This document shows positions 8,038 through 31,765 of a stretch of 64,000 bases of DNA, piece after piece (within the stretch, counting starts at the first letter, position 1; each line of letters starts with the position of its first letter). This DNA comes from Cerioporus squamosus. Taxonomy: Eukaryota > Basidiomycota > Agaricomycetes > Polyporales > Polyporaceae. The translations under genes were made by a program, and so were the position numbers. The stretch is from the NCBI GenBank assembly GCA_022592435.1, contig JABYQS010000005.1:186001-250000 (forward strand), read 5' to 3'. The notes under the pieces were generated by a model. The model worked only from the letters and a program-made list of their open reading frames with translations. It did not search any database and had not been told where the DNA came from.

Positions 8038-8741
8038 TTACCGCTGAGAAGACCCAAGGCAGACCTGCCACCAACTTCTGTCGGGGTTGCTTGAGGCGCG
8101 GCTGACAGGCGGCGCGTCGTCCCGTGTTGCGGTATTCACTGGAGTGTTCGACGCTGTGTGGAGAAGATCCATGAAGTGGGTGCTCCCGACAAGCACATCG
8201 ACTCCAGAAAGCTCACCAGCTTCGCCCACCGACGTCCCTTGCACACCCTGTTTTCCGGTGTTGTTGCTTCCTGAAGTCGCTCCCCCGGTATGCCGAGACA
8301 GCGTTCAGCCAAGGACAATATGGACTGAACGCAGGACTTGCCTTGGGTAAACGAACAGGGCAAGCTCTTCTCGACGCATCTCGGGCAAGCGGTGTTGGTC
8401 GGGAAGCTACTGAAGTCGACCAGACATCGAACCCTATTATCTTGACTTGAGCGGGCCGTGAGTGAGCGACGCCCGTCGGGGGAGACAACACAGTGCTTGC
8501 CATGCGTCGCAGGCCTTCCTACGCTTGCCGGTGCAGCTCATATCTTCGGTGGGCCATTCACACAGGATGTTGATGTTGAAGCACCTCTTGCACCCATACA
8601 TTCCGGGTATCTTCTCGCATTTGACTAGCAGACGAAGTCGTCGGCTCCGATATCGAGTCGGAACGGGAGTGGCGCACCTTTCCTCACAGCGCAGGCATTG
8701 CAGGCTGCGCGTCGAGAGGGCCCGTACACTACGCTTGACAT
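8038..8741 (-). CDS. Double Zn(II)2Cys6 cluster protein, family member ZC1
   Basis: Exons 8741-8678, 8624-8501, 8445-8342 and 8270-8038 give 174 residues. Cluster A has cysteines at 14, 17, 24, 33, 36 and 43 (CNACAVRKVKC, then CKRC). Cluster B has them at 60, 63, 70, 83, 86 and 93 (CDACQDNRVRC, then CPRCVEKSLPC). Both fit the fungal binuclear zinc cluster spacing CX2CX6CX5-12CX2CX6C with basic residues in the first loop, so DNA binding is a reasonable inference. The tail ends SWWQVCLGSSQR. Introns lie after RK (phase 1), inside the second cysteine codon of cluster B (phase 2) and after CSFTQ (phase 1), as in the other members. Introns 2 and 3 use GC donors (gcaagc, gcaagt). No transcription-factor middle homology region is present; the protein is far shorter than normal Gal4-type factors. 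Confidence 0.75.
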
Positions 8742-11700
8742 GGCTGCATAGGATGATGGGTGGGACAAGGACAAGGTGGACGGAGCACCCCCAAGACTAT
8801 TCCTAGGGCTGACGGCGGATGAACAATGGGGAACCCTTCACGTAACCACGATTCGCAGACGGATCCTATTGCCCAGAAATGCTGTTCAAACAGGGCTATA
8901 TTGAGCTGAGTAAGAAGGTTTGTACGCACACGTTACCAGGACAAGGTGGTTCGCCCACACTGTATCTTCGCTTCTCGGAACGAGTATGGGATAGAACGTG
9001 CCCGATTCCTGCCCGCGAGCCCGGACGTTCAAGTCGATTAGGTTCATCGGATCCTGCGAATGAAACCTAGGAGATAGGTGGGCGTTCGGCAGCATACCCA
9101 TGAAGTATATTGAGCGATATCCAGGAGTGAGTGATAGTCAACGCGTTGCACGAGGTTGTCGCACTCTACCGAAGGCTTGTGAACAGTGACATCCTCGACG
9201 CTTCTACTTGGCAGGTATATATGTTCCGGACTGCGTGGTTTGGAGACAGTAGACTCAGGCCCCAGAGAGGTGTTCGGAATACGGACGCAGGATGATGGTC
9301 AGGGAAGCGTCAAGTCAGCTCCAAAGAGGCACAGCGGCTTCATGTGAACGCACCCTCGACCTCCCATTGTGAGCCCTTGAATGTCCCCGATATTTGCGTA
9401 CCAGCTTGCCATGATTAACGGAAATGGCAAGAGGAATCTAGACAGCCCTGCGAAGGCTATTACTTGTGGTTGTTAGAAGTGTGGGCCGGGCGTGCGTGAT
9501 ACACGCCACCGAATCTCGGCGAGATCAAGCTGGTCTCCCATGCGTCGACAGAACATACCACCTGAGGTCTGTGGGATACAAGTACGCCATTGTCACGTTC
9601 TCCTGGCACAGATGCCCTAGAATGAGCCTCGCGGCACCCCGAGCTTCATGTCGGCGAATACGAGGTGTTTCATGAAGACACGTCTCAGCCGGAAAGTACG
9701 CACCTGTTCGACCGCATGAGCAGTTCTGGAGCAACCTTTGTTCCTATAGTGAGGCGGCGTGAACTCGTGAGAACGAAGCGACGGCGCACGCCGATTACCA
9801 CCGTCTTGCATCCAGTGTATGGGAAGTCTGCCGCGCATACTCGTAGTCGCAAATTCAAGTCGTGCAGAGGCGGGGTTCTCCTGGTGCTGTGAATTACAAG
9901 GAACAAGTCAACATGACAGCGAAGCAAGACACATGGAAGCAGAACTGCAGCAACCATCAGCGGGCCCAAGTCGGCCTTGGAAGGACCGGCCGCGAAGCCT
10001 CCGAAGAGAGGACACTGAGGACAGCGGAGTTGCGGGATTGGTCAGATTGCAGGCCGTCCGACGCACGGTGCTGCCTTCCCCAACTCTCCACTACCATGTT
10101 GAAAACAAAGGCAGAGTCTGCGCCAGGACTCGTAGCGATTGGTGCCGCACATTGAATGCCAATTGCCAACTCCGTTGGCGCTGGCCGAAACGTTCAACTC
10201 CGCCAGGTATGCCCGACCTGCCGTAAACTGACGCATCCCATACCCTCAGGTTCCACGCCACAGCGTTTCGAAACTTACGGCCTTAATATCCGCTCCCTCA
10301 CCGCTCCCTCTGATCAACGTTTTTGGTATTGGAAGAGTCTTGGGGCCGTCAGGTGGTAGTAGGCCACTTGGGCTATTCCGTGTCATATGGGCGAGCACGG
10401 CAATGAACAGTTCATCCCTACTGATCACTGATAACGTGGGAGAGATGAAATGTTCGAAGCCATGGATTGCGGATCCCTCTGAGGACAATCCGTCCGGTCA
10501 AGGGACAGCCTGAGCATGCACTGACACTAACAAGCCCAACCTGGGGAACTTCGGGAGTAGCAGTGCAGCCAGAGGACTCGCCGACATCGATAACGAGCAT
10601 GGGAGAAAGCGCGCGCGCGATATCCAGCACGAAATGTGACTTACTCACCGAATCGTAGAGGAGCCCGGCTTCGCCGGAGATAGCTCAGGTTTGATGACGT
10701 GTAGAAGCATGTCCGGATTCTGGACGTTCATGGAGACGCAGGGAGCATCTTGAAGCAGATGGCGGCACAAAGGCGGCAGAAGAGGTCGCAAGAGGCCAGG
10801 TTGGCCATCGAGAATTCACCAGGATTATCGGCACTTCCATTCGTGTGCCTGTGTTCGCTCCAGTCCAGCAGACATGAGCATGTGGGCCCTGCGCTGCAAG
10901 GCATGTGAGGAGAGAGAGGCCCGGTCGTCGTGAGGAGAGGGCGGATCACGCGTATCGTACTCGCCACAACAACGTATATCTGCAAAGAATTTTGAACCAC
11001 TGACGTGCCCGCCGGAGTCCGGTGAGCCAGTAATCCTCGTTGTTCTGAGTTGACACCGCCGCAGGACAATGTGATGGCTATTCTGTGCAAGCAAACATGG
11101 CTCAGTAAGGAACGGACAGAGAAATAGCCATGATCGGGATATGCATCGGGAACGGACAGGCGGGTTAACATAGGGCGCTAAACAGTTCGAGCTACCAACA
11201 CCGCCACGTGCCCGCGTCCTTCGGCTATGGGAGGAGTTCCGACTGCCGGGTGCGCATCGCGAGTACTTACTTCAAGTCACTGTCAGAAGACTATCGAACC
11301 AGTCACAGAGACATTCGTCAGCGTTATATCCCCTAGGCAGAAGATTGGGTGGCCTTCTTTAAGGGGAGACGGACGGCTCTCCGACGAAAGACGAAGGCTC
11401 TTGTACTGGCCAGTGGTCACGAAGTCGGGTACTTATCCGGGAGATCATCAGCCTCGTTGTGCTGTTGTGTGTTCAAGTTCAAGAGACGCGACAAGGCTCT
11501 ACTTCAACGTACGTAGTATGCAAAGGGTGGGTCTAATACAGAAGAATCTCAGCCTGAGCCTGAGGCAAATCGCTCACTTCCCTGAGCAGCTTTCGCCAAG
11601 GATGACGGCGGCGATATTTACTCTACTCACTGACATTGTCTTGGCTTTGAAGGTTATATCTGACGAGAACCATGGCTGCAAGTCTACGTCCATGTCTGGC

Positions 11701-12387
11701 GGTCCTAATCACCTGGAACCACACCGGGTTCCAGGCTACGGAGATGGATGACTTCTCGCTTCCGGAAGACGGTATGACGGCATCTAGGTACGTAAGGAAA
11801 AAGAGGTTATTGCTGTGCGCGGGTGCATATGCGAAAGACCATCTGAGGTACCGACATACCGGTATCACGTCCTCGCGAACCCAGAAGAGGCGGTCCAAGG
11901 ATAGGGCTGCGAAGCATCACATATAGTGGTACTTATTAGCAGTCCTGAGGAGTCTATCGGCTTCGATCGGCAGCATCGATTGTCCACGAGCTCTCACATG
12001 AGAGCTGCGCACCTCGGCTTGTTCACTTGAGACAGAAGCTAGGTCTTTGTCAGCCGACGAACCTCGAGTATCGCGGGCGTGTCCAGGACCTTTACGACAT
12101 CCGTGCAACTACTGGTGCAGGAATCATATAATTCCTAGAACAGGACGTTACTTCACAATACACGTTGCAGGTACCCGGAGCTAAAGCGGAGGGATCGTCG
12201 AATAAAGGCATATGGACGCGGATACACCGGATGTCGATGAAAGGTTGCGACGGCAGGAGGCACACGAGGAAGTAGGGTGAGGCGAACTGGGTGAATGTAT
12301 ATGTCTTGGCCTGATTAAAGGTCAAATTGGTTCAGCCGTCCGGATACCGACATGGATTACGCACCTCAGGCCCGCACTACTTCGCGG
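8742..12387. other. Gene-poor stretch, possible decayed sequence
   Basis: No confident gene is seen. Frames such as 9819-10226 (+), 10728-11171 (-) and 11227-11751 (+) are open, but their compositions look random and they contain no domain. Isolated CXXC strings on the minus strand near 10.5 kb (SACSGC) and a degenerate GVPRGSF string near 9.6 kb hint at old zinc-cluster relics; neither keeps enough of the pattern to annotate. No transposon termini were recognised. Confidence 0.4.
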
Positions 12388-13643
12388 CTAGCTTTGTTTG
12401 TCTGGCGAAGCGGCCATGCAGACATCCCACCAGCTCCTCCTGGCGGGAGTCCTCGGCGCAGAACCGGCCGCCTCGCTCACTCTTACACGATCCGAAGATG
12501 TGGAGAGCGGGGTTTGCAAGGCTGTACTCTCAAGCTGCGAATGATCGAGGATCAGCCCTTGCTCGCTGACGACGCCAATGAGAAGACCGATCAGGATGCG
12601 CCTGTCAACGACAAAGAAATGAGGGCTTACTGCGCGCTGACGATACCCACGACGCCATCTTGAGAAGCAGAAGACGGTTCGCGGACGGGACATCTGCCAA
12701 CGGAAGCTGTCTCCTCGGATTCGCGACGGCCAGCCGGCCAACCGACAGCTCGTTCACACACCATCTCCCTTCGTAGGCATCGAAGACACGAAGACGCTCC
12801 TAGGACGTCTAAACAGGCGACTGATCGAGAGAATTTGTGAGACTCTAGGGATGCGACAATGCGCCGACAAATGGTACCTTTCTTATCCGCGCATGCATTG
12901 CATGCGCACCACTTCCCACTCTGCTTCGTGGGGATAGGGGGAGGTGTGCCGAACCTGCTCGGAAGAGTATCCGCAGGACCTTTGTCCGGAAGGGCAGACA
13001 TATCAAGGACGCTCGTCCTCGCGGGAGGTCTAGGAAGACGGACGTTGCTTAGGCTCAGTGGATATGTGGCGGGAAGGATCGAGGGGCCGTAGGATGACGT
13101 CTCATTGGACGTGCGAGACAAGATCCCGTGTAGACCAGGCTGCTGAGGACCGGTGACGTTCGGCTTCCCTACTGCTCGATTGTGGCGCATTGATAAGCCG
13201 TCAGAAGATGTGGAACCTTGCGACTCACCGGAGAGGAATGAACAAGAGAGGCTCTTCTCAATACACCTCGGACAAGGACCGGAGGGGTCCCGTGAGCATC
13301 GTGTCTTGGACCTGGTGCTGAGAAGCGGTGTGAGCGGTCCGTCGATGAATGAGAATGAGGAGCTTACCAGGCGCTGCAGCATCTCTTCGAACGAGGGGTG
13401 GGCGGCCTACGAGGCTTACCACTGGTGTTGCGAACCTGACAGGTTCCGTCGGGTCGTTCACAAACTGTGTCGTCTTTCAAGCATCTCAAACACGAAGGCA
13501 TCCCCGGGACGTCGACACACTTGGCTGAGAGACTCGAGAGTGTCAGGGCAAATGAAGAGCAGAGCGCGGCGAAGCGCATTCGTACCTCTCCTCCTGTGGC
13601 ACCTGATGCACGCAGGTGTTGAACGCTGATGCTTCTTCAGCAT
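12388..13643 (-). CDS. Zinc-cluster protein with three Zn(II)2Cys6 clusters, family member ZC2
   Basis: Exons 13643-13586, 13524-13368, 13317-13229, 13171-12878 and 12820 onward join in phase. Cluster A (Cys 12, 15, 22, 31, 34, 41; CIRCHRRRAKC, CLRC) and cluster B (Cys 69, 72, 79, 87, 90, 97; CSACTRSKTRC, CPRCIEKSLSC) match the family, including the intron in the codon of Cys72. Instead of ending, the frame continues through a serine-proline linker into a third, A-type cluster (Cys 192, 195, 202, 211, 214, 221; CNACADKKVAC, CLRC) with the usual phase-1 intron. The last 80 or so residues end RRSWWDVCMAASPDKQS, the family tail. The exon join between about 12660 and 12500 is uncertain, and a second B-type cluster seems missing there. 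It may be one fused gene, or two adjacent genes of which the second lost cluster B; its own ATG could be near 13003. Confidence 0.6.
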
Positions 13644-15042
13644 GAGGTGGAAGGTGGGGGAACGGCAAGGGATGATACACATGTCGAGCATCGGTACACT
13701 TAGCGAGGAAGGGTGGCTGACAACATGGCAGAGGGGCTGCCAGTAGCAGGCGGGAATGGAATCGAGGATCATAGCAACGCACCAGATGCATTTGCAACAT
13801 GAGCTCTCTCAAGAAGACGCAGATGAGTCGCATCGCCCACCAGAACTGTCCAAATATGCGGGTAGGTTTCCGAGTCCACGCAAGACATGGGTGTTCGAGT
13901 CGTTCAACTACATGGGTGTTCAGGTCGTCCAACTTAAGCCGTCAATATGCCTGGTTGCGGCTGTTGCGTGCCTCTTCATTGCTCTTTAAAAGCCGCTACA
14001 GTGTTGGAGAGCACTCGGCCTCAGGTTAAAAAAGAGTTCAGGTAGAGTCAGACTCAGAGCGAGACGCAAGCAGCGACTCGGAGTGGCAAGGGAGACGCTC
14101 GCTGGCAGGCCAGTGTGACGAGTCTGGACGCGATCACATGATTGTTGTCACGACTCACGCCCTCCGAGTCCGGAAGACTCGGAAGACTCCGACTCGGAAG
14201 CTCGGACTTCAATCGTTGTTCAATCGAGTTACGAGTACACTTAGAGGGGGTACTTTCTCTGCAAGTTCTACTAGTATAGGATGAATGGGTTTAGTTCACT
14301 CCGCACCATCAATGCGGTCGCAAATAGACTATGCATTGCATCAATTTGGTACCTATGCCGTTGGCAGGCAGAGTACTAGGCGGGACCGGGAGTATCCCCG
14401 TAGATCGGGATACTCTCGAAGCCGAGAACCAGGTGATGACTCGGAAGAGACACTCACTGATGTGTGCCGGTGAAAATATATCCTGACAACATGGCGCGTG
14501 GCACGGTCATCGATCCAAAGCCTCATGTTAGCCACATGCCGGTGATCTGTACAATGGCATGCGGAACGCAACAAGCAAGGCATCTTGGAAGGTAGTCAGA
14601 CCACACAGAAGCATGAAACACTCATGGAACTCAAACCCTTCCGGTACTTGGTGGTTGCTTGGTAGCTAGTTACCCTCAGGTCCATCAACCGTCAATAATC
14701 CCTAAACATCCTCAAACAAATGACGATTGTGATCACAGTGACCCCTGGGTGGCAGTACGAAAGCAAAGTAGCGTCGGCTGGCTGATGCAAAGGCAAAAGC
14801 GTCATAATTGCTGACTAACGACGAGGACTACCATCAGGGTGCTTACTGGACTTTCGGAGTTTGAACATGACTATTATGGTTGAAAGAGCCGAGGAGCCGC
14901 AGATAAGACAAGATCTAATCCCATAGATCTCGCCCTCTGCCCACTTGGCCGCCACAGCCTTTGGCTTCCCGTTCTGTCAGCAGTTCGATATCGACCACGA
15001 CGACGACTACCACTACACGCGTCTGCCGATAGCTTTGCCACC
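13644..15042. other. Intergenic region upstream of CRM1 with repeated short motifs
   Basis: Around 14.04-14.23 kb the octamer-like strings GACTCGGA and CTCCGAGT recur in both orientations. A perfect 9-bp hairpin lies at 14390-14415. No coding gene is supported. The last 100 bp before 15043 would hold the CRM1 promoter. Confidence 0.4.
14390..14415. repeat. Short perfect inverted repeat
   Basis: GAGTATCCC at 14390-14398 faces GGGATACTC at 14407-14415 across an 8-base loop. It lies in a non-coding stretch; no role can be assigned. Confidence 0.5.
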
Positions 15043-18000
15043 ATGGAGGTACGCCTAGCCCATCATGCTTCCCACCAGCATTCCAGACTCACCGTGTCTC
15101 AGGGCATACTCGACTTCTCGAAAGAGTTCGATGTCGCGCTCATGGACAGGGTGGTGATGGCATTTTACTCGGGTGCTGGCCAAGAGGTGCGTGGTACTGC
15201 TATGGCAGTGTGCTCTGTGTCTTATACTGTTTGCTCCACGCTTCAGCAACAATTGGCGCAGCAAGTCTTGACCCAATTCCAAGAGAACCCGGAGGCATGG
15301 ACCAGGGTCCCTGATGTTCTTGAACGCTCGTCCTTTCCGCAGACCAAGGTGTGTTTGCTTATTCTCCTGCTGTGCTACTGGTCCTAAGCTGCTGTAGTAC
15401 ATTGGGTTGCAAATCCTGGAGAAACTGATCTTGACGAGGTGGAAGTCTCTTCCGGAGGGTCAACGGCAAGGTGCGCGTCGACCTAGTGGCTCACAAGCAT
15501 GGACTCTTACCCCCTAACGCCTCAGGGATTCGCAATTTCGTTGTGGGCATCACGGTGAAGGTATCTTCGGATGAGGCGACGATGCGGAGGGAGAAGACGT
15601 ACTTGAACAAGTTGAACCTGGCGCTCGTTCAGGTGCGTCCCTGCCAATCATCATTCACCCACTCCATCTCACCCGCATGACGCGCTTTCATAGATACTGA
15701 AACAAGAGTGGCCACACAACTGGCCAACATTCATCCCCGAGCTCGTCGAGTCGTCGAAGACCAACTTGTCCCTCTGTGAAAACAACATGGTCATTCTCAA
15801 GCTCCTGTCCGAGGAAATCTTCGACTACTCTGCGGAGCAGATGACACAAGCGAAGGTCAAAAACTTGAAGAACCAGATGTGCGGCGAGTTCTCAGAGATC
15901 TTTAAGCTCTGCTCGGAGATTCTCGAAGAGGCGCAGAAGACATCTCTCATTAGGGCGACTCTGGAGACGCTTCTGAGGTTCCTCAACTGGATCCCCTTGG
16001 GGTACATCTTTGAAACCACTATTATCGACCTTTTGTTGAACCGGGTGAGTGCTGTATGTCACATGCCTATAGTCGTATGTCTAAGTCCGTGCTGGCTTCA
16101 GTTCCTGGAGGCGCCAGATTTCCGAAACGTCACGCTCAAGTGCTTAGCTGAGATCGCTGCACTGAACGTTGGCCCGGAATACGACCCCAAGTTCGTCATC
16201 CTTTTTGCCATGGTCATGACTTCCGTGAACCGTATGATTCCCCCGAGCACCAACATCGCCCAGGCGTACGCGAACGCAGGTGATGCCGGTCAAGAGCTCG
16301 TCCTCAACCTTGCCCTCTTCCTGTCCAACTTCCTGTCCAACCACCTCCGCGCTGTCGAAACTGACGCTAATCGCGATGTCCTTCTGAACGCGCATCTGTA
16401 CATGGTGAAGATATCGCAAGTCGACGAGCGGGAGATCTTCAAAATCTGCCTGGAGTATTGGTTGAAGCTGGTCGCTGAGCTGTACGAGGAGATCCAGAGC
16501 CTACCAATAGGCGACAGCGGCTTGCTCATGGGGCTTAGCTTGGGGAGCGGCAGCAGTGTGCTCAACGGTGTCTCACTGCGGAAGAACATCTACAGCGACG
16601 TGCTCTCCAACCTCCGATTGGTTGTCATCGAGAAGATGGTCAAGCCTGAGGAGGTACGTTTCTTCCCGTCTCTGTGCTTTACCGTGTATGATGCTCATCG
16701 TTCGTGCACAGGTGTTGATCGTCGAAAATGAGGAGGGAGAGATTGTTCGCGAATTCATGAAGGAGAGCGACACCATTGTTCTCTACAAGTCGATGCGCGA
16801 GCTCCTTGTATACCTCACCCACTTGGACGTTGCCGACACGGAGAGCATCTTGACGGAGAAGCTCTCGAAGCAGGTAGATGGGTCGGAGTGGTCATGGCAG
16901 AACTTGAACACGCTCTGCTGGGCAATTGGTTCGATCTCTGGAGCAATGAGTATGTGGTCTACCATTCGCTTTCGACTCCCCTGCTGACATGTTACACAGA
17001 TGAAGAGACGGAGAAACGCTTCTTGGTCACCGTCATCAAGGACCTCCTAGGGTTGTGTGAGATCAAGCGAGGGAAGGACAACAAGGCCGTCGTCGCGTCA
17101 GACATCATGTACATCGTCGGCCAATATCCTCGCTTCCTCAAAGCGCATTGGAAGTTCTTGAAGACCGTAGTCAACAAGCTTTTCGAGTTCATGCATGAGA
17201 CGCACGAAGGTACGACTTGGTATATTGGCTTGCGAGAGCTGTGCTCACGGTATTGTAACAGGTGTGCAAGACATGGCTTGCGACACCTTCATCAAGATCG
17301 CGCAGAAGTGCCGGCGTCATTTCGTTATGCAGCAGTCAGGAGAGTCCGAACCGTTCGTGGACGAGATCCTCCGGCTGCTGCACAGGATCACCGTCGACTT
17401 GTCACCTCAGCAGGTACGTTGTGACCCGACTCTGCCTTGTACCAGTCTTGCTCACGTTGTGTCTTGATAGGTGCATACCTTTTACGAGGCCGTCGGCTAC
17501 ATGATCTCTGCGCAGCCCAACAAGCCGCAGCAAGAGAAGCTGATCGCAAAACTCATGGAGCTGCCGAACAACGCAGTATGTATCTTGTCTGTCCACTGTC
17601 CAATCCCATGCTCATTGATGGCTGACTCTTCTGCAGTGGGATTCGCTGATGGCGCAAGCAGCCCAGAACATGGACGTCCTGAGCAGCATAGACAACATCA
17701 AGATCTTGTCCAACGTCTTGAAGACCAATGTATCAGCATGCACATCCATCGGAACGTTCTACTTGCCGCAGATTGGTCGGATATTCTTGGACATGCTCGG
17801 CCTCTACAAGGCTGTCAGTGGGATCATCAGCGAGACAGTTGCTCGTGAAGGTACGTGTTCCCCTCGGTGATGACTCCATTGAGCGCTGCTCACCCATCCT
17901 AGGCCTCATTGCGACGAAGACGCCGAAAGTCCGGCAGCTGCGTACTATCAAAAAGGAGATCCTGAAGCTTATGGAGACGTTCATCAAGAAGTCGGAGGAC

Positions 18001-19141
18001 CTCGAGACTGTCAACAACAACTTCATGCCGCCCTTCCTGGACGCGATCCTCGGCGATTACAACCGTAACGTTCCAGCGGCTCGGGACGCCGAGGTGCTCA
18101 ATGTGATGGCCACGATCATTGGCCGCCTTGGGGTGCGTGGTCTTGCGTAAATACCTAACGGAATGGAGTGATAACCTTTTTCCAGCCTCTGCTCACGCCA
18201 CAAGTTCCCGCTATCCTGGACGCTGTGTTCGAGCCTACGTTGAACATGATCAACCAGGACTTTGCGGAGTTCCCAGAACACCGTGTGGGCTTCTTCAAGC
18301 TCCTGCGTGCGATCAACCTGAACTGCTTCCCTGGTGCGTCTCTCTGTCCGTGAACTGGACTTATCTTGCTCATCGTCGGTTTAGCGCTGTTGACCCTCCC
18401 TCCACCGCAATTCAAGCTGTTCATGGACAGCATCATCTGGGCCATCAAGCACACGATGCGTGACATCGCGGAGACGGGTCTGAACTGTAGGTCTCCTAGG
18501 ACCGTAACATTTCGGATAGTTTTATTAACCCTTGATTGCAGTGTGCCTGGAAGTCGTCAACAACTTCGCGGGCGCGGATCCCGCGGTAGCTAACGCCTTC
18601 TTCCAACAATATTTCCTGAGCATCATGCAGGATATCTTCTACGTCCTCACGGATACGGACCACAAGAGCGGCTTCAAGCTCCAGTCGATGCTCCTTGCAC
18701 GGATGTTCCAGCTGGTGGAGACGAACCAGATCACCGTCCCGCTCTTCGACCCCGCGACCGTGCCCGATCCGAACGTCAGCAACGCGCTCTTCTTGCGCGA
18801 GTACACGGCGAACCTCCTGAAGTCGGCGTTCCCTCACGTGCAGAAGTGAGTGACGTCCTAGCGTCTGCACATGGACATCATCTGACCGAATCTTCAGTTC
18901 GCAGATTCAGACGTTCGTCGTCTGCCTGGGCGAGTTCCACAGCGACATCAATCGCTTCAAGCTCGCACTGCGCGACTTCCTCGTGCAGCTCAAGGAGTTC
19001 TCTGGGGACAATGCGGACCTATTCTTGGAGGAGAAGGAGGCCGAGGCGCAGCGCAAAGCACAGGAGGAGCGCGAAGCGGCGATGCGCATCCCGGGAATGC
19101 TCAAGCCGTCGCAGCTCGAGGACAAGGACGAAGACATCTAA
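15043..19141 (+). CDS. CRM1: Exportin-1 (CRM1), nuclear export receptor
   Basis: Seventeen exons can be read: 15043-15048, 15103-15186, 15247-15348, 15398-15470, 15526-15632, 15694-16044, 16102-16653, 16712-16949, 17000-17209, 17262-17413, 17471-17575, 17637-17850, 17903-18132, 18186-18333, 18385-18486, 18542-18845 and 18898-19141. All phases agree and give 1073 residues, the normal length. The HEAT-repeat receptor binds RanGTP and leucine-rich export signals and carries cargo out of the nucleus. Signature strings include [51 protein letters not shown] and [20 protein letters not shown]. Cys524 in [15 protein letters not shown] matches the cysteine attacked by leptomycin B in human and fission yeast CRM1, so sensitivity is expected. 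The first exon holds only two codons. It is the only large housekeeping gene within the zinc-cluster region. Confidence 0.97.
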
Positions 19142-21311
19142 TGGACAGGCGCGCCGCATGACTTATCTTGTCACTGTATGATAGACATTCTTTCGCGTTC
19201 CCGCTTCATTGTTGTGCGACAATCCCCCCTTGGTCCCTAGCTCGCTACCCCTACCCCTACCCCATGCACTTTGCCTTCCCCTTCCCCTGTCCGCATTGTC
19301 GCTCGACTACATACATACAATCGTCGTGCCGTTGGCTTGCTTCTTGTCTCGGTTTCTCGCGCGTATGTGTACCCTTGCTATCGCCCCTCGCTGTTCATCC
19401 GCATCTACCCACACATGTAACAATAGCTTACGACCAGAGGAATACGAAGAACGAAATAATGTATCGTATCGCTTGCTTCTCGCGTATGTGTCCGGGGGTG
19501 CCTCGGCCCTCGCTGAGGCTGTCGGAGACGAAAACGGTCGACGCGGGCAATCGCCCTCCGTCCGCGGGGTCGCACCCCATTGTGCGCGGGGCCCATGGGC
19601 CACTATTGTCGGACAATGCGGTCCCGCCGCCGGTGTCGAGGTTGAGCTTGTCCGCGCGCAGGCGAGCTCCGCGTCGTGGACCCGACTGGCTCGCGGGGTC
19701 CCTTCCATGCCGTCGCCCGCCGAGGGCCGAGCAGGGGGGAGTTGCTCTGGGTTGCTGCAGCACATTGTTCTGCAGCCTTCTGATCCAACGCTGTTCTGAT
19801 CCATCGGACACGTTTGTTCGCGGGCGAGGAAAGTTGTCATGGATTGGTGAACGGGGCACACTGGGAGCGATACTCGTTGATACCGCACCAGACAGATGTC
19901 GTCTGTCGCTAAGGGTTCGGTGGTTCTAAACGCACGAAACTCTGGATCTAAGGGTCCTGGCAGCGCTCGCGGCCCTTCACAGCGTTTCACATCCCCACAC
20001 GCTCTCACAGGGCACGGCTCGCCGTGGCCAGTAGCAACAGCTGCCGAGGCCCTGGTCGCGGCATCCCTTCAGAGTCCGAGTCCGAGTGCGAATCCGAGTG
20101 TGTGCGGTGGAAGTACACAGGCGGGAGAACGGATTATCCGCGGTGTATACACAGTACCGTGACAAAGGCCCGGAGGAGGAACGCCGGGATTCATGATGTA
20201 CGCCGGCGCGGGGTAAGTACACATTTTAGGTGGACAGATGCGATAGATTGCGCTAATTGCGACCGAGGTCCGCTCACTCCGGTCATCTGGTGCACCTGTC
20301 GCTGGCGTCGGATGCCAGGGGCGTTTGCCGGTGATCGACTGCTGGCGGTTGCGGGCGACCGTGGCGTGGCGGCCCGGAGCTGGCATCTCAGATACATTTC
20401 TGCTGCGACCGACAATGAATCGAGCGGCGAGTCCGACTGTACGTATGGGCCTGGCGACTATACGCGGGGCCTGGCAGCCATGTGCTCTGCGGGGTCGAGG
20501 CCTGTCCTAGTATGCAACGAGTGTCAGAACAGTCTTCTGGTGCTCGCCACTAGTGGCCGGGTGGGCTCTGAGATGGGCGCTGGAGTGTACGTGGGTCCTA
20601 ACGGGGCAACTTCCAAGTCGAGCATTGCCTGCGTGCACGACAGCCATGCCGCGCGGCCATGGGCTCATGTGCAGACTCCGACGCGCCGCGCTGACGAGCC
20701 AGAGCCATGTCCCTGAGGCCGCCCGGCAGGCCGTCTGCCTTTCCGCGCGGTTTTTTGGGTGACGTGAAACGCTAGAAGGCTGTCAGATGCGGGGAAGTAG
20801 AACCCCTGGCCAGGACACATGCATCCTCCAGCGTCCCGAGCGAGTGGCAGGCAGATCTACAGCGGGCGAGTCTGTTTTCGGCCATGAGACCCTCGTTCTC
20901 GCCCCCTCTATGGCCGGCGCGGCGTATGGGAGGAGCCTTCCGCACTGCGGGCGTGTGGGACGCGCCGACACGCGTAGTCGAGCAGAAGTTCCTGGGGTTG
21001 GGCCTCGTGGATCGTCGCTGGCGTGGCGGGTGTATACGCGGTGGAAATGAATATCTGGATATCAGGGAATGGAGAGAGCTTCTGTTCCGAGTACTGCGTG
21101 TTCTGACCGCATCTGCGCAACGAGTGGCAGGAGGCGGCAGGACCAGGCTGGCAAACGCGCGCTGGATGAACGCTGTGCCGGCTCGATCTCCATGGATCTG
21201 GGCAGGTCAGCGGCCGCTGCTGCACGGACGCTGCCGACACGCGCGATAGCATCTCAGCCACCTCTCTCACCACTCGCACTCGCACTCGCCTCCTCCGCCG
21301 TCCTTCTCGTC
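19142..21311. other. GC-rich intergenic stretch, no confident gene
   Basis: The 3' flank of CRM1 has a CCCCTA run near 19.25 kb. Long open frames exist on both strands (19307-20008 -, 19428-19859 -, 20024-20716 +), but they overlap each other in a GC-rich segment and show no domain. The plus frame starts with a TCCGAG hexamer run coding Ser-Glu repeats. The TMA20 promoter must lie in the last few hundred bases. Confidence 0.35.
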
Positions 21312-22116: not shown

Positions 22117-23129
22117 CGTTACGATGATGTACTAACAGAATGCCGGCCGATGGCCCCGTTGTATCAACAGTCGCCCACTGAAACGTCTCGCTGCCCCGTC
22201 GCATTCCGCAGTGCCGTAAGGAGCGCCCCTCTTCCCGCGACAGATGTCCCCAGACGCGCTCGTACGTGGCTTATTTGACCGCCCCCCTTGCGCATCTGTG
22301 CGATCTCCAGCGCATCGTCCGGGCACCCTCAATCGCCGCGCGCGTATAGGCGGGCATGCCGGCAAACAGCGGCAATTGCTCGGTACCTTTGCTTGACTCG
22401 GGTGGCGCCGATCGCCATTTTGCCTTCGGTATGTTCCTAATAACCCTGTGTTCTCATCAAAATCAGCCAGGGAACGCGCTTGTGCGCTTTGGGCCGGTCG
22501 CCCTGCCCCCGCATGCCGTCCCGGGCTCTGCTGCGTGCGGTGTCCGCGGAGGGCCCAAGTATCCCGATGCGGGGACATTGAACCTAACCGTTCTGGGCGA
22601 GCCACTGATTGGTGCAGTAGGTGCGCGGCGTGTGCGCGGTGCGAAGCCTGGGCCGCGTTTGCCCAGCGGAGGTGACGCTTTCTGCCCGTACGGGAGCAGG
22701 CACCTTTGTGGCGGAGTTACACGCAGCTGCCAGAGCGAAGGCGAGAAGCGCAACGCCACCGTTCTCGCCCGTCCCGACGGCGGGAGGGGCCAATGGCCAC
22801 CCGCTCGGCCATCGTCATCACCAGGAGCCCGGGGGCTTCCATGCGAATCTGGGATCTGTGCACTATGGCGATGGACGCCCGGCCTGCAGTCTCCCACCAC
22901 GTACGTGACCGCCCTGCGTAGCCCTCTTCGGCGAAGATCATATCAAAGAATCCGCGGGGGTCCCGCCTCGGCGCTGCGTCGCTGCGTCAATGAGAATAAA
23001 TATCGACCCTGCTCTGACGCATTTCCCCCCAGCTCACCATCCTCCCTCCCGTCCGTGGGGACAAGGTCTCTGGCTGGCCCTGACACTCCGACCCTTCGTC
23101 CTCCTGATCCCCCAGACCCACGCTGCGAT
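22117..23129. other. GC-rich stretch upstream of ZC3, possible relic
   Basis: A frame open from 22356 reads in phase into the first exon of ZC3, but nothing in it resembles a domain. Another frame near 22448-22675 is unusually cysteine-rich (RPGLCCVRC, later CSRCAACARC), roughly like a decayed double zinc cluster with wrong spacing. I do not annotate a gene here. Confidence 0.3.
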
Positions 23130-23663
23130 ATGGCAAAAGGCAAGGCCTGCCGGGAGTGCAGCTACCGCAAAGGTGCGTTCCTTCCGACGCTCGGGTAGAC
23201 CTACGCTGACAGCCGTCGTCGGTACGCAGTCAAGTGCATCTTCCCCGAGGGCACCACCAGCTGCGAGGAGTGCACGAAAAGAGACACCCCGTGCGTGCGG
23301 CGGACGCACGGCGCGAACTCACAGAACGGCCCCTGCGACGGCTGGTACGTACAAGCCGCCAGCCTGCGATCCTCTTAGGTTCCCGTCCGCGCGATGCTGA
23401 CTCGGATTCTGTCCACCCCACAGCAAAAAAGGCCACTTCGGCTGCGAGTGGTCGGGCAACGGCCCATGCCTGCATTGTGCTCGCACGGGCGCGGTGTGCA
23501 CGCTGTCTGGCGGAGGTAAGCTCTGACTGCACCTTTGACGGGTGATGTGCACGACGCTGACGCCTCGCATCGCGTGATAGACAGCCCGCCGCCGTCAAGC
23601 CCGTCGTCGGACGGGGTGGCGTCCCCATCCCGGGGACGCTTCTTCGACATCGTGCTCAACTAG
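23130..23663 (+). CDS. Double Zn(II)2Cys6 cluster protein, family member ZC3 (shortest)
   Basis: Exons 23130-23172, 23230-23344, 23424-23515 and 23581-23663 give 110 residues. I chose the ATG at 23130 because other members also have a short basic lead before the first cysteine. Cluster A: Cys 7, 10, 17, 26, 29, 36 (CRECSYRKVKC, CEEC). Cluster B: Cys 50, 53, 60, 68, 71, 78 (CDGCKKGHFGC, CLHC). The Cys53 codon is split by intron 2 as TG|C, and introns 1 and 3 sit at the family positions in phase 1. The tail is very short and ends GRFFDIVLN, with FF in place of the usual WW. Only two zinc clusters and a serine-proline linker are present, so it lacks any evident activation domain. DNA binding, possibly as a competitor of larger factors, is inference. 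Confidence 0.75.
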
Positions 23664-24839
23664 GCGCAACGCACTCCGGGGCGTCGGCGGATGGGGGTGC
23701 CGTACGTCGCGGCGGGGGGAGGATCCGGTCGCGGTCGAGGTTGGGGCGGGTGGTCGATGGAGCACTGACACGGACTCGGATTGCTGCAGTCGTCTGTCCC
23801 TTGTGATTGGTTTATGCCACCAGAGATTCTAACTCGTTCAGGAAGCCTTGGACGCGGATGCAACCGCTGTGCGCTCATCTCCGAGTGCGGATTCGCGTGG
23901 TGGCAGGTGCCAGTATGGCTGTCAACGCTCGCGCTTCCCACCGTAAAATGAAGTTGATCTGGGTGAAATATTGCAGAAGCACCTCCGTGAGGCGTGCCGG
24001 CATGAATCAGGACGACATATTGTCGAAGCATCGTTGGGACGGGAGATGACACGCTGCGCGCAATATTGGGCCTCCCGACGAGCCGTCAGGCGATGGACGC
24101 AATTGAGTTCGATATCGCAAAGCACAAAGGAAGAGCAGATGGGGCAGGTAGGGCCCCCCGCCCGACCCTCGGCGGACACAGAAGGCAATGCCGGCGGCAT
24201 GGGAGGCGTTCGCGGAGCTGCAGCACAGAGGCGAGATGAAAGTCAGATTGGGCATGTCTGCAGTGCGTGGGAGGCCCCAAGGGCGATCTCGTCGTGCGTG
24301 TGTCCGGCTGGCGGCTGCGCGCGCCCACGACCGCCCCTCCTCCGTTCCGCCCACGCGAGCAAGCCATTCAGCGGCCAGCCGCCCGCGTCTTCTGGTGCGG
24401 CCACGCCTGCTCTTCTCGCCCCCACGCCCCGCTTCTCGACCCACGTTTGTGTACCTGTCTTGATCGTTGTCGTATGCGCTGGCACTTGCAGCGGCCGCGA
24501 GGACTCAGGAGCTGCTGTTGCTGCGTGCGCCCGCCCTGAGCACCCCGCCGACCCTGACACAACGACGATGCCCATGCCGCGCTGCACACCGCCGGTCTCT
24601 CGCGCGACGCGTGTTCGGACATAGTGCGTCTCGTTGCGGGGCCCGTGATGTCCCTGTGCTCCAGGTCGCACTGTGGAGCGTCCCGTGCGTGTTACGTTTG
24701 TGCACTGAATGGGTCTGCGCAGGTCATAATAAGTACTCTGGACTCGCGCACTACCTTCGCCCCTCAAGCCTTCGACTTCGGGACGCTTACGGTGACGTGA
24801 CGACCTTCGTGGCGTGGCCCGACAAACAAGCTAATAGCA
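23664..24839. other. Intergenic stretch between zinc-cluster copies
   Basis: Open frames on both strands (23971-24624 +, 24007-24444 -) overlap and carry no recognisable motif. A CSAW string near 24.26 kb recalls the exon-2 end of the zinc-cluster genes but has no supporting context. Confidence 0.35.
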
Positions 24840-25130
24840 ATGTCTGGGAAGACTCGGAAGCACGCATGTGTAGGTGCGCCCGTGCTGGGATTGGCAATGT
24901 TCAAGCTCAAACAGGTACGTGCTCGATGGTCCGCACAGGTGGGACAAGCTCCCGACTCCCCAGTGCCTGCCGGATACCTGCAGGCTGCACGGTCCAGACA
25001 GAGGCCTCTGGTCACCTGCAGAGACGCCAGCGAAGCAAGGTGCGTGCTGCGCTGTGGCATATCCGTTGATGCCACGCGCCTTCCTCCCAGCGAAGACATC
25101 GTGAAACGCCTCTTCTCGTGACACATGATG
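24840..25130 (+). pseudogene. Decayed zinc-cluster family copy
   Basis: The frame begins like an intact member: MSGKTRKHACV, then GG TGC GCC, where one missing base would give the CXXC start of cluster A. After a likely intron the text reads CLPDTC..., GLWSPAETPAKQGACCA, which parallels ECVWPAERAGRACRQC of member ZC4. A later segment CEDIVKRL has the CX6 spacing of cluster B with leucine where the cysteine should be. Cysteines are lost and spacing is disturbed, so a coding function is unlikely. The assignment rests on these partial matches and on its position between two intact members. Confidence 0.4.
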
Positions 25131-26234
25131 GCATTGTCATCTCCCAGCCCCCTGCGCTCGATGCCTCATATCAAGGACACGGTCATGGTGGGCGTCATGA
25201 CCCAGGGACGAGCCTGCGTGGTGAGAACATTCATTGCTTTGGCTCTCTGCGCATTGCCGGGATCTGCCCGCGTCCTGCATTCGAATTTCCACGTCTCGCA
25301 GCGTCCGCCTAGCACCACGAGTCGCTCGCGTAGATTCTCCTGCTGCGCCGGGATCTGGGCATCTTGACAGGTCCAGACGGAGAGGGCTGCCAGCATGCCC
25401 GCACGCGAGGTGTCGTCCCCGCCCCGATGGGAGCCCTCGACCCGCCGCAGCCGGGCGCGCACGGCGGCATGCGCGCGAGTCATCGCGTACTCGGTACCTC
25501 ATCGTTTGCTAATTGTCAGGAGCCCGAAATAAGTCTCCGCCGGGATCAATGGGGGGCGTTGCAGGCAGGCGAGAGCCGACTGGCAAGGAGTCGGACACCG
25601 CTTGGGTCGGTGGCGAACGGGACTCGCGATGGCGCGCCGGGCTCGTTGGCAAGAGGCTCGTCGGCGACGGCGACTTGACGGTCGTCCCCGGGCCATGCCG
25701 CGCGGACGCTGGGCAGGAGGGTCGGGTAGCGGATTCGGTCAAAGTCCTGACAGCAACAGGTGCCGCTAGTGCGGCGGCCACGCCACCCGTCCTCAATCAC
25801 CATCCTCATTTCCCGGGTCTCGTGTCCTGGTTCTCGCTCTGCTGGCGACACTGCACGGCGTTTTCCAGCGAGCCCATAGGCTGCCCGCAGGCGTCGCGCG
25901 AGGTCCGTCGAGGGTCCGAACTCTATGCCGGCGGGCACTTGGGCAAATTCGCTTATTGGAGGACGCGCGTCCCAGGTGAGCGGACTCGGAGGCCCTGTCC
26001 TCGGATGTCCATCCCATTCCGTTATTCGACAGCGTATGTTCCCACCTCGCTCTCGCACATCAATTCCGCGCCCTGGAAGGCAATCCGAAGCGAGTAGCGC
26101 CTCAGAAAGGCAGTGCCCACATCCAGCCGCAACGTTATTTCTTTTGCGCTCCCCACATCATGGACGCCATATAGCCCAAGCCCGCGCCGGCTGCTTCCTC
26201 GGTCTCCCTCCCCTGCCCCTCCCTCCCGCGAGCC
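25131..26234. other. Intergenic stretch upstream of ZC4
   Basis: Several overlapping open frames (25166-25483 -, 25513-26097 +, 25546-26058 -) are seen in GC-rich sequence without domains. The last 60 bases before 26235 are pyrimidine-rich (CCCTCC runs), typical of a fungal leader. Confidence 0.35.
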
Positions 26235-27031
26235 ATGCAGAAGGTCGTGTCCCGGTTCACGAAGCGTCGCGCCCAGCGCGGCCAGCCCAAGCACTCTCGC
26301 GGCGAGACTGCCTGTGTCAGGTGCGCGTCCACGAAAAGTACGTGTCTGCATTGACGTTGCGGTGCTCTTCGCGGACGCGTGCGTTCTCACTGCGCCGTTC
26401 CAGCTAAGTGCACGAAGTCCTCCGCAGACCCACAAGGACGATGCGGCAGGTGTATCGAGAAGAAACACGAGTGTGTGTGGCCCGCTGAGAGGGCCGGGCG
26501 AGCATGCCGACAGTGGTTCGTTTCTCGACGCGTTCGGGGCCGGCGGCCATGCTGACTATCTGGTCCGCAGCCGCGACGCCAAGATCCGTTGCCCACATGT
26601 CCGCTCTCATTCGACCGCACGCAACGGGACCGAGCATCCTATTGCTGACGCTACTCCTCACGCAGGTCCGTGCTTCGCTCATTTCGTCTGTTCGACATCT
26701 CATGTCACGCTGCCTTCGCGGTTTCATGCACGCCCGATCGCGTTCGCTCAGAAGCAGGCCCGGCGTCCACGCCTCCGCCCGTCGCAGGTCCTTCTAACGC
26801 GGCTGTTATTCTCAACCCCGGTACGTACCTATCCTTCGACTTAACCTTAAGCGCTTGCCGACTGCCGACTCTCCAGATGAACCTGTTCATCCGTACGTCG
26901 CCGGCTCGCAGCCTCGTCTGCATGTCGACACCAACATGAACGCATACGACACCCCTGGGACCCCGCCGTCAGTTGCCAGCAGCCCGCGATCCGACTACTG
27001 GTCCATCGTTTTGTCTGACGACTCGCGCTAA
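26235..27031 (+). CDS. Zn(II)2Cys6 protein with a complete cluster A and half a cluster B, family member ZC4
   Basis: Exons 26235-26337, 26404-26515, 26571-26665, 26752-26820 and 26877-27031 give 177 residues. The N-terminus is basic (FTKRRAQRG). Cluster A has Cys 27, 30, 37, 48, 51 and 58 (CVRCASTKTKC, CGRCIEKKHEC). Cluster B keeps only Cys 69, 72 and 79 (CRQCRDAKIRC); the following residues, PHVRSHSTARNGTEHP, contain no cysteine but three histidines. The intron inside the Cys72 codon and the phase-1 introns are conserved. The tail ends RSDYWSIVLSDDSR, an YW version of the family WW motif. Either cluster B has lost function, or histidines replace some ligands. Reading frame and splice sites are otherwise intact, which argues against a plain pseudogene. 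Confidence 0.68.
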
Positions 27032-29599
27032 GCCCTTTCCTTCTATCATTACTTCGTTCGACTTTGGATAGTTCACGTTCATGGATACATACACGCACTC
27101 ATGGCCGGCCCAAGCTTCGTTGATACACTACCATCGCTGTATTGCACCAGCACCCACTACTCCTGCCTCGTACATACTACATAGTCTAATCTTCCTCGGT
27201 CTCGTCCACTTGGCCACTCTGCTCCACGTTGTAGCACTATGTTCCCTTGTTTGCTCCAGTATCGCTACCCGCTCTAATTGTTCTCCCCCTCCAATTGTAG
27301 TATTTTGTTGGTGCCCTTGGCGTCCGCTCATCAGACCCGCGACGATCGATATTCGTCGATCAGGCATCAAGATTCGCGCAGCACGCTCAGCTGACCAACT
27401 GGCAACTCACTTAGACGTCGCACTCCAAGAGCATCGCTCTTGCCCCGCCCATGGGCCCGGTCCGTGCATGGGCATATCCGGCATCCGCGTGATCGGTCGA
27501 GGCCGATAGACGTTCTCAGACGTTGTGTACGTTGTTCACTTGTGCTTGGCCGCGTGAAACGCTGCTGCGCGCGTGGGCTCGGACTGCCGACCGACGTTAA
27601 CCCTTAGCCTCGCCTCAAGCGAAGCCCCGCTTGTGGGCTTCAGCGCGATGGGCATCTCATCGGCAGCTTCGTACAGAGCCGCCTGTAGCGAGGATCGCGG
27701 GCAGGCTCGAGCGGCGGCCCGGCCTGGCACCATTGAGAAAGGCGGGGACGAAGGGACGCATCAGGTTCTTTTGGCGCGGGAGGGCGCGACGCCAGAAATA
27801 CACGTAACAGAACTCCCATGAGAGGCTTTCGACGGTATACGGATTGCCTGTTGTGCGTCCCAAGGCCCACACAGTTATATTCTGGGTTGCGCCCGGTGTG
27901 CTGACGTACTGGGTCCTGGGTGTCTGGGCTTACTGCGGAGATGTTCGGGCTTGTGGTCCAGTGGTGGAGCGAGCAGTGTCTTCTGCCCGAGTCGCTCAGC
28001 AGTCACTGGTAGGAAAAGCCGAGCGTCGCTACAGCTGTCAGAGCCCGGATCCCGCCATGCCGTCAGGGTCAAAGCGGCCACGATGACGAGCAGCTGAAGT
28101 CATCTTGGACCCTGTCGCGCGTGCGCGAGAAGTCCGAAAGGCGGACTCTTGGCCCAGATATCAACTGGGGTGGTCGATCTAGGGGAGCAGCGTCAACTAG
28201 ACAGAAGCCAGCAATATCTGGCGGGATTAATTGACACATCTCACCAGACTTCAGGGTCTCTAGGTGCCGCTCACGAAGGTCCGCGCGCCAACAATGCAGC
28301 TGCTCGAAAGCGACATTGGCATGAACACGCTCGTACTCTCTATACTTGAGGAAGTGTCAGAAACTACGTGGCAAGTCAGTACTAGTGACATACCAGGGCC
28401 ACGCGCGAATTCTTCTTATCTGACCCATCAGTAACCACATCACTTGAGGGACCCAGACAGGATCTCTTGTGTAACGGATCTGGGAAGATTGGGACCGACA
28501 GACAGCATGAGGGTCCCAATATTCTGATGAGAAAAGGTCTAGACGGAGGACAACACGTCGAAGTGTCTGCCACCGGAAGAAAAACCGGCCACGTGGCGGG
28601 CGTCTGAGCCGACTCCGAGTTTCGCGGGCAGGGCAGTGCGCTCGCCCGGCCCTTCTTGAAGTTCTTCAGCTCAAGCTGCCAGTACCTCCAACGTCCGGAT
28701 CCCCCCTGTCCTGCATCGCTCTCTGGACTCGCTCGTCGATGCAATATGAAGCTTGATCAATTAAGTGCCCCATACGTCAATCTCCGTCTCGTGAGCCTGG
28801 TCAATATATGTACCTATCTTCTCCGAGACGCTGCCTGAGGCTTCCGGAAGCTCGAACGGTGGCAGGAGGCTACGGAACGGATGTATGTGGTCACCGCGTT
28901 GCTACGTAGAATTAGTACAGCTCACGACTTATCATTGGTTCCTCCACCAGCGATACCCCGCAGGTTCTTTCTCAGCCGTGGGCATCGAAGTCACGGTCCG
29001 TCCTTCTTGTTCCGACAGATGTCTCGAAAGACCGAGCGCAGCCAGGAACGCCCAGAGACGGTGGGGTGAAGGGACACAAAAGGTACGAATGACTGCATCT
29101 TCCGCGTCAGGTGTTCGCGCTTGAGTAGAATTGCAGCTTGCGGGGATAGCGCGCCCGTTGGGGGCTTCCTTGGATGCATGATCCCTTCCCACCGATGTCG
29201 CGGATAGCCATCAGCAGGAGCTGATTCGAAGGCCCCTCTGCCTACTTCCCGCCGAGATGAACACGTACGCGTCGTCCCAGGAGCGAGCTGGGACAGCACG
29301 GCACCCCTCGAACCCACACGGCCCAGCCGGCGACGCGCGGACAGGCGGGGGGTCGTGCAATCTAGCTCAGATCTACAGGCCCGAGGAAAGAGGTGCAAAA
29401 ATAGATTGCTCCTCATCCCGGGTGGCCAGCAGTTGGTTCGCATTTTCTTTTCTTTTCTTTTCCATTGTCCTCTCAGTTGGCAGTACGCCGTATCGCAATT
29501 GTTCCCTCGCGGCATGCTTCCATTCGTTGATATATGCCAACAACGAATAGGCCCGTCGCATTCCTCGATCGTATCATACATTCGGGTGCGATATAGTAC
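27032..29599. other. Long gene-poor stretch
   Basis: No gene recognised. Frames at 27081-27509 (+) and 28991-29695 (-) are open but show no domain. The minus one covers 234 codons and overlaps the zinc-cluster relic on the other strand. A TTTTC tract occurs at about 29447-29465. Confidence 0.35.
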
Positions 29600-29904
29600 A
29601 GGCTTGCTTCCTCTTGCCTCCCATGTTCGCTGCTCGCCGTGCAGCAACTCATCGAAGCTGTCTGCCAGCGCGGCTGCCGAGAGAAATTTACGCATTCTTT
29701 ACTTCGGATGTGCTCATGCAGTGCGAACAGGTCCCGGGCAGAAGAATGGTCAGGCGGCTTCGCTGGCTGCGTCCCCTATCACATCTAGTCGCCCAGTTCC
29801 CCATCTGCCGCGTCTGCTGCTCAGCATCTAGCGTGCGCTCAGCTCGTGATCACCAACGTGCAAGAGCAGAAATCAAATCAATATACAGAAGCCACCGGAG
29901 TTAG
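29600..29904 (+). pseudogene. Decayed zinc-cluster family copy with cluster spacing preserved
   Basis: A first segment reads RCSPCSNSSK, like the start of cluster A. After an intron-like interval the frame gives QCEQVPGRRMVRRL and on to RWLRPLS. Compared with KCEDVPGHSSCKKC of member ZC5, the order and distances are identical, but Cys4 is valine, Cys5 is leucine and Cys6 is serine. Further on, VCCSASSVRSARD matches CCSACTRSKTRC of ZC2 with both later cysteines replaced. Intron 2 appears absent. Exact spacing with lost ligands indicates a former member under relaxed constraint. Confidence 0.5.
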
Positions 29905-30934
29905 GGCTGCAGTTTACGAGAAAGAGGCCGGCGGAACTCCTGGAGCCTCGATCCGAGTATGTGGTGGGTGAAAGCGCTGAGAGTGGCATGATGGTACGTG
30001 ACAATTGGCGTTCTATCTGGACTCTTCATTCTCTGGTGCCGCCGAGAGCCGTGATGCCGCCGATACAAAGTCGCGGAGTTGACAACGGCGCGTTGCCAAC
30101 CCAGCAGTGAGACGTAAGTGTCTCTGGCACGATGCGTTTCATGTTCATGCCCTCTCTCACGTAATAGTCGTGGACGCGCCAACCTATCTCTCTGGGTGCT
30201 CGGAGCGGGGCATAATTCAGAAGACGATGTGCACCAATTGCCACGCCCGACCGAGGCTTATAGCCTGCCCGGACAAAAAGCGCACTGACACATGATCCTG
30301 CATGTCAAGGTTTTCTCGATGATGCTGTGACGAATTTCCTCAATGCACGCCGAGTACACAACTCTCTCGGGGTACACGCGCCCTCTGCCTCGTCGAGTAC
30401 TTATGCGGAAGTAGCAACTCAACCAGTACGAGGCGATGCAGAGGGCATTGCCTCCTACGTAGCGCCATTTTCTATTGTTCTCAAAGAAATGCCACTCTCA
30501 TCTCGGAACGTCAGGAAGCATCGCAATAACGGAGGACCCTGTTCAGCCTCGCTCCCGTACCGGTCTCCAGTCGCTTCGGCCTTATGAAGATGGAGAAGGT
30601 GTCCTTGGACCCTGCATCCCACGCGCTTGGTGCAGGGGCGCGTGGGTGCGCCATGTCGAAAGAACCACAGTACTAATATCGATATTTACACAAAATGGAT
30701 TCCGCAATATTCGTTCGCCCCTTGTGTACGCCGCTTCACCAAGTTGGTCATTCGCAGATCCCGTCAGAACTCTACATCGCCGCACAATCCAAGGTTTCGT
30801 CGCGGCGGCTCTGAAGTTGACCCCGCTCGTCACTTTTTCCGTCCTCTGGAGTACTTAATCCCTCCAGATGATGCGCGGCTCTCCCATCCCCTCCCTGTTC
30901 TTCGTCTCTCTCTCTCACCTGCCCCCCGCCCACA
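29905..30934. other. Intergenic stretch upstream of ZC5
   Basis: No gene recognised. The 40 bases before 30935 are CT-rich (TCTCTCTCTC), consistent with a fungal promoter or leader. Confidence 0.35.
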
Positions 30935-31765
30935 ATGGCTCCTGGTGTCAAAAAGTCGGCGTGCACTGGATGTTCTCGGCTCAAGCGTGCGTATATCGCC
31001 CCCTATCAGCCCTCCGTCATACCGACCACCTCCCATACCCGCTCAGTGAAGTGCGAGGACGTCCCTGGCCACTCCTCCTGCAAGAAATGCGCAGCCAAGA
31101 AGCGGCCTTGCGAGCGGCCGGCGCCGGGCCAAGGACGTTGCAAGAAGGCGTGCACACCGTGGTAAGCCGTGCCCTCTGCTACCGTGTACATACCGATGAC
31201 CTATTTCATAGCAGGCACGCCAGAACACGATGCGATAGAGACTCGCAGGGTGGCGACTGTCAGAGGTGCATAGAATTGGACATCCCCTGTTCGTTCGGTG
31301 AGTGTGAGAGTCCCTCGTCTCAGATGTAGTAGCTGACATGCAGCGTGCTTCCGTGCCCCTTCATAGGCCAAGGTCCCACCGCCAACGAGCCTCAGGCGGG
31401 CAAGCACGCTTGCCCCGGACTCGAGCCCATGGTCACTCCGGAGACGATGACCGGAGACTATATGCTTGAAGCTGCCGCTGGACCGAGCTTCAGCCAGTCG
31501 GAGACACGCCTCACTCGTGCGTCCCCACTCCCCTCCCCTCCCCTGCGCCGTTTCTATGCTTATATCCGCCGTTCCTTGCCTAGTCACCACGGATGATGAA
31601 GCAGGTGGCGTAGTGGCCTCGGCGCCAGCCTTCAAGTTGTCGGTCGATGTCGATCTGGCTGCTGCCGACGACACCGTATCCGGTCCCACCTCAACAAGCA
31701 GTACTCAAAACAGCCCGAACAGCAACTGGTGGGCTGTGTGTGTCGTGCCTTCTCCCGATGCATGA
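30935..31765 (+). CDS. Double Zn(II)2Cys6 cluster protein, family member ZC5 (reference member)
   Basis: Exons 30935-30986, 31047-31161, 31212-31297, 31367-31516 and 31584-31765 give 194 residues. Cluster A: Cys 10, 13, 20, 29, 32, 39 (CTGCSRLKLKC, CKKC). Cluster B: Cys 53, 56, 63, 72, 75, 82 (CTPCRHARTRC, CQRCIELDIPC). The Cys56 codon is split TG|C by intron 2; introns 1 and 3 are in phase 1. The acidic, serine-threonine-rich tail ends SPNSNWWAVCVVPSPDA. Both clusters carry the lysine and arginine residues that contact DNA in Gal4-type clusters, so nuclear DNA binding is expected; no coiled-coil dimer region follows, which is unusual for that class. Splice sites are all canonical GT-AG and the gene looks fully intact. 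Confidence 0.78.

Follow-up and report, generated by a model that had tools for sequence, protein, structure and literature searches.

What kind of protein is encoded by a run of small zinc-cluster genes in a wood-decay fungus genome, and how little of the Gal4 plan can such a protein retain? The question is raised by a 64,000-nucleotide stretch (the window) of the 54 Mb genome assembly of Cerioporus squamosus (Polyporales), in which positions 8038 to 31765 carry five genes, here termed ZC8, ZC13, ZC23, ZC26 and ZC5, for proteins with Zn(II)2Cys6 clusters set in tandem. Gal4-type factors commonly set the spacing of their DNA half sites by a dimerisation helix; a natural chain consisting of two clusters and hardly anything more would reveal the limit to which this plan can be pared down. 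Judged by sequence comparison, the window genes belong to a real, conserved and so far unnamed family, a variant of the Gal4-type zinc-cluster proteins. In its plan a complete cluster (A) is joined by 10 to 27 linker residues to another (B, complete in most members), and a low-confidence stretch and a conserved C-terminal aromatic-hydrophobic motif follow.

The gene models were made ahead of any database search, spliced from a reading of the DNA and from paired cysteine half-motifs, with introns of 50-86 nt. The initial annotation had placed five spliced genes in this span, each with an A and a B cluster; the five genes stand, with deposited models joining the same exons, but B is complete in only four. 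Three models (ZC5, ZC23, ZC26) agree letter for letter with deposited C. squamosus hypothetical proteins, and the remaining two (ZC8, ZC13) agree after one more intron each.

On the plus strand, ZC5 (30935-31765; exons 30935-30986, 31047-31161, 31212-31297, 31367-31516 and 31584-31765) encodes 194 residues with 100% identity, over the full length, to deposited P0001; cluster A lies at 30962-31111, B at 31151-31290 and the tail at 31688-31759. ZC23 (23130-23663; exons 23130-23172, 23230-23344, 23424-23515 and 23581-23663) encodes the 110 residues of P0007, with A at 23148-23294, B at 23334-23499 and the tail at 23601-23660. ZC26 (26235-27031; exons 26235-26337, 26404-26515, 26571-26665, 26752-26820 and 26877-27031) corresponds to P0003 (177 residues), with A at 26313-26474, the first half of B alone at 26505-26592 and the tail at 26960-27028. 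The other two genes are on the minus strand. ZC8 (8038-8741; exons 8741-8678, 8624-8501, 8445-8342, 8270-8217 and 8153-8038) encodes 153 residues and, once an extra 63-nt intron is included, equals P0011 except at residue 99, where the window encodes S and P0011 has N; A lies at 8702-8560, B at 8511-8355 and the tail motif at 8112-8041. Two of its four introns (8271-8341 and 8446-8500) start with GC instead of GT, and the P0011 model uses both too. ZC13 (12388-13772; exons, as in P0002, 13772-13586, 13524-13368, 13317-13229, 13171-12878, 12820-12631 and 12565-12388) equals P0002 with an additional 57-nt intron and an upstream start; it has three clusters, A at 13610-13460, B at 13378-13242 and A' at 12902-12756, and a tail motif at 12462-12400. 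The lengths, first given as 110-194 residues, are thus 110, 153, 177, 194 and 364.

Two complete tandem clusters are found in every gene other than ZC26, which has one and a half: its B is reduced to the first three cysteines (C-X2-C-X6-C). The same half B occurs in the ZC26 orthologues P0005 (Polyporus arcularius) and P0006 (Lentinus tigrinus), and a complete B in the relatives with ZC26-like tails from Daedaleopsis nitida and Fomes fomentarius; the simplest reading of these sequences is a loss of half of B in the Cerioporus/Polyporus/Lentinus line. ZC13 departs in the other direction, with the order A-B-A'-tail, shared with P0004 of Lentinus brumalis. It is likely, from this common order, to be a fusion of two tandem copies that predates the split from P0004. 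Thus the claim of a B cluster in all five genes does not hold for ZC26, and ZC13 carries a third cluster; the canonical spacing that was also claimed is borne out, every complete cluster in the 12 proteins aligned fitting CX2CX6CX7-12CX2CX6C, within the pattern CX2CX6CX5-12CX2CX6-8C that defines Zn_clus proteins. Paralogues with two, one and a half, and three clusters form a ready series for testing the role of each cluster.

Intron positions tie the copies together. In all five genes, introns of phases 1, 2 and 1 occupy common positions: the first lies two residues ahead of the third cysteine of cluster A, the second inside the codon of the second cysteine of cluster B, and the third after the B region. 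This common layout implies that the tandem was already present in the ancestor of the copies. Together with relatives in five other species, it also argues that the family is more than chance.

These relatives come from profile searches, run twice against a set of some 5.8 billion proteins; at E <= 10 the first yielded 10 rows and the second 8. Two rows, P0010 (E 2.8) and P0015 (E 9), were dropped, each having one cluster by eye. There are 13 family proteins from six Polyporales species: five in C. squamosus, three in L. tigrinus (two strains), two in P. arcularius, and one each in L. brumalis, D. nitida and F. fomentarius. The range may be wider, as the profile search requires common five-residue words and the first search scored only the 7992 best-sharing candidates. 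A single-sequence search with ZC5 gave no match beyond itself at E <= 1e-3. In their source records the members are labelled 'hypothetical protein'; the UniRef names are 'Zn(2)-C6 fungal-type' and 'Uncharacterized'. The family groups proteins so far catalogued merely as hypothetical. With layout and tail common to its members, the local family of small tandem-cluster proteins first proposed from the window is upheld. The phylogeny of the copies, which had been called for, is resolved in part: the protein tree supports a ZC13 pair and a ZC8 trio, but seven of its nine inner branches are open, and the ZC23 branch is very long. P0005 and P0013 of P. arcularius are each on a contig of 89,654 bases, and P0006 and P0014 of L. 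tigrinus ALCF2SS1-7 each on one of 2,240,950 bases; because equal contig sizes are reported for both types, linkage of ZC8-type and ZC26-type genes is probable in these two species too.

Might these proteins be no more than remnants of ordinary Gal4-type factors undergoing decay, or else artefacts of annotation? Such an origin would fit the loss of half of B in ZC26, the merely hypothetical status of the relatives and the two GC-start introns in ZC8. The domain content points elsewhere. Zn_clus (PF00172) is the sole Pfam family above cut-off among the 13 members; all five window proteins have it, as do P0002, P0004, P0008 and P0011-P0014, and it falls under the 21-bit cut-off in P0005 (18.1 bits) and P0006 (14.7 bits). 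P0009 has no Zn_clus match in Pfam, its clusters apparently being hidden by a model that reads through introns. Neither Fungal_trans (PF04082) nor any other regulatory domain had a Pfam match above cut-off in the 13 members, and no septin domain was matched. This absence, with the common layout and tail, supports the view that these are not fragments of ordinary Gal4-type factors. In addition, the same half B is present in three species, the three-cluster order is common to two, the tails are conserved, and a genome search for a larger factor with the same tail gave one match, ZC26 itself. Decay or artefact is therefore considered improbable. As a separate observation, P0009 (L. tigrinus ALCF2SS1-6) resembles a ZC23 orthologue, and its deposited model apparently reads through introns.

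The tail is the second conserved element. The motif [WYF][WF]-x-[VI] is present in 12 of the 13 tails, that of Fomes having T at the last place. Between ZC26 and its two orthologues, identities are 22/23 and 23/23 in the tail, 25/34 and 27/34 in A, and 47/75 and 39/75 in the middle; for ZC8 and its orthologues they are 17/20 and 15/20 (tail), 25/31 and 25/31 (A), 29/35 and 27/35 (B), and 25/39 and 18/39 (middle). ZC13 and P0004 share 27/31 residues in A, 28/30 in B, 23/31 in A' and 13/17 in the tail. By these identities, clusters and tail are kept and the middle drifts. Third codon positions are the most divergent in all ten paralogue pairs, but this is a weak test because the pairs are almost saturated. 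A SUMO-interacting tail was considered, prompted by the likeness of IVLSDDS in ZC26 to the Daxx motif IIVLSDSD (PMC8616421), and rejected: the motif core given there is hhXh or hXhh, where h stands for I, V or L, and the strict core fits only one of the 13 tails.

The fold and the residues facing DNA bear more directly on function. In two AlphaFold2 models, two Gal4-like folds are predicted, with pLDDT of ~77-91 in the cluster block, a mean of 63, a disordered tail and no helix of at least four residues outside the clusters. Structural matches of the models are zinc-cluster proteins, and none of the matches listed spans both clusters well. A profile search of the PDB was headed by PPR1 and LEU3; eight of its 29 sequences at E <= 10 were GATS-like/CASTOR1 proteins (E 1.6-1.7), taken as chance. 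A basic residue stands three places ahead of the third cysteine in 25 of 26 cluster halves, and in 23 of the 26 another stands one place ahead of it, so that both Gal4 contact positions are occupied. Among the roles offered in the initial annotation, that of DNA-binding regulators is favoured by the predicted fold and the kept contact residues.

We tentatively prefer, ahead of the alternatives yet short of conviction, a lineage-restricted family of compact DNA-binding regulators in which the paired clusters would serve as a built-in dimer and the tail would recruit a partner. Each cluster would bind two zinc ions, and the basic residues ahead of the third cysteine would read a CGG-like half site. 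With two clusters per chain no dimerisation helix would be needed, the chain acting as its own dimer on paired half sites. ZC26, with its half B, would bind through one cluster or have another role, and ZC13 would be an old fusion of two tandem copies. A fuller version, in which built-in-dimer regulators of the Polyporales share one tail partner and the copies at the locus diversify by loss or gain of clusters (ZC26, ZC13), is possible but more doubtful. Autoregulation through paired CGG sites was tried and rejected: the spacing shared most widely is found upstream of four of the five genes, a count equalled or exceeded in 232 of 300 shuffled sets.

In ZC23 and ZC26, DNA-contact or zinc residues have been lost from cluster B. 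This loss, and the small size and richness in cysteine, would suit zinc-binding proteins that work via protein contacts or zinc handling and do not read DNA; the basic contact residues in 23 of 26 cluster halves speak against that role, which we judge hardly likely. The other suggestion, that the proteins are competitors which, lacking an activation or regulatory region, sit on the half sites used by full-length Gal4-type factors and so block these sites, is favoured by the kept contact residues, by the shortness of the proteins and by the finding of no regulatory domain. It appears unlikely, if less so than zinc handling: the conservation of the tail speaks for an active partner, and a two-cluster chain would presumably not copy a spacing set by another factor's dimer helix.

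Comparison with known systems places the preferred compact regulators close to, and yet apart from, the Gal4 class. PPR1 (1pyi), LEU3 (2er8), HAP1/CYP1 (1pyc) and GAL4 (1d66), all PF00172 proteins, agree with the window family in the spacing of the cysteines, in fold and in their basic contact residues. In contrast to Gal4-type proteins, the window family has two clusters per chain, no Fungal_trans domain, no dimer helix in its models and, except in the ZC13 types, only 110-210 residues. Two clusters in one protein as such are already known. PoZCP55 of Pleurotus ostreatus, treated in PMC7295025 as one protein, combines septin domains with two zinc clusters; it shares the two clusters with the window family, in whose 13 members no septin domain is matched. 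PMC10305253 quotes a factor of Alternaria that has a pair of Zn2Cys6 domains as well as a transmembrane domain; the likeness, apart from that added domain, is one of description only. Dual-specificity fungal factors such as those with C2H2 and Zn cluster domains (Shelest 2017, PMC5415576) also have several close DNA-binding domains, and paralogues lacking one recall the half-B loss in ZC26; their domains are, by the definition given there, of different classes, whereas both domains of the window family are of one class.

A locus resembling PoZCP55 is present in the C. squamosus genome. On contig C955 (50500-59500, about 800-2821 of that piece, minus strand), a septin frame is followed by two Zn(II)2Cys6 clusters ~160 residues apart on the same strand, with a third cluster half ~6 kb away. 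A PF00172 search of the genome gave 29 places at E <= 0.001, none inside the window; three are on C955, two of them being the pair beside the septin frame. Each cluster of the pair is interrupted by a phase-1 intron, two residues past its second cysteine, unlike cluster A or B of the window family. Because the intron sites differ, the C955/PoZCP55-like pairing and that of the window are probably of independent origin. The layout had been called unusual, and this stands in part: in the literature covered, with subscription papers mostly outside it, no described family of two close clusters plus a tail and little else was found, but PMC7295025, PMC10305253 and C955 place two clusters per protein on record.

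The neighbourhood bears on whether these are selfish or defence genes. An Exportin-1/CRM1 gene (15000-19200, Pfam) separates the minus-strand members (ZC8, ZC13) from the plus-strand ones; to the right, Pfam identifies CAF-1 subunit A, an RFC-type lid domain, HSP70, ribosomal protein S2, anthranilate synthase and a P-type ATPase. Of 20 neighbouring frames scanned, 11 had no Pfam match; a frame near 21.3 kb, which looks like MCTS1, gave no match in Pfam. By their domains, the recognised neighbours are housekeeping genes. A selfish or defence role would agree with copies that are clustered, diverged and lineage-restricted. It loses nearly all its appeal beside such neighbours, relatives kept in other species and ZC8 and ZC26 types on equally long contigs in two of them; moreover, no toxin, nuclease or mobile domain was found, PADLOC not being searched. 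We regard it as very improbable. Plasmid and Rfam searches gave no match.

At least two relics had also been proposed, and these are not borne out. When the window was scanned with the profile in all six frames, nothing further came out below E 0.1. In a DNA scan of 50 intergenic segments (600 comparisons), the best match, at 28970-29056 on the plus strand (score 47 against ZC13), is reached by one of 2000 shuffles (p ~6e-4, ~0.39 after 600 comparisons), and is only suggestive of a relic of a ZC13-type exon 2. This DNA scan is insensitive, with just three of 15 pairs of true copies scoring above z 4, so that old relics could have escaped it. Another possible decayed copy is a frame between ZC23 and ZC26 (24839-25200) that has a start and contains Cys residues and the string 'RSWWAS'; the frame (24.84-25.19 kb) is not outstanding in the DNA scan. 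Six protein searches of the genome returned the window locus and weaker matches (E 0.002 or worse), most with stops. Absence of copies elsewhere is not firm, since PF00172 misses the window genes, whose clusters are split by introns. Five contig pairs (C179/C395, C423/C757, C42/C645, C168/C20 and C656/C921) have equal zinc-cluster scores, which suggests that the assembly contains some of its regions in duplicate; the window locus itself is found once.
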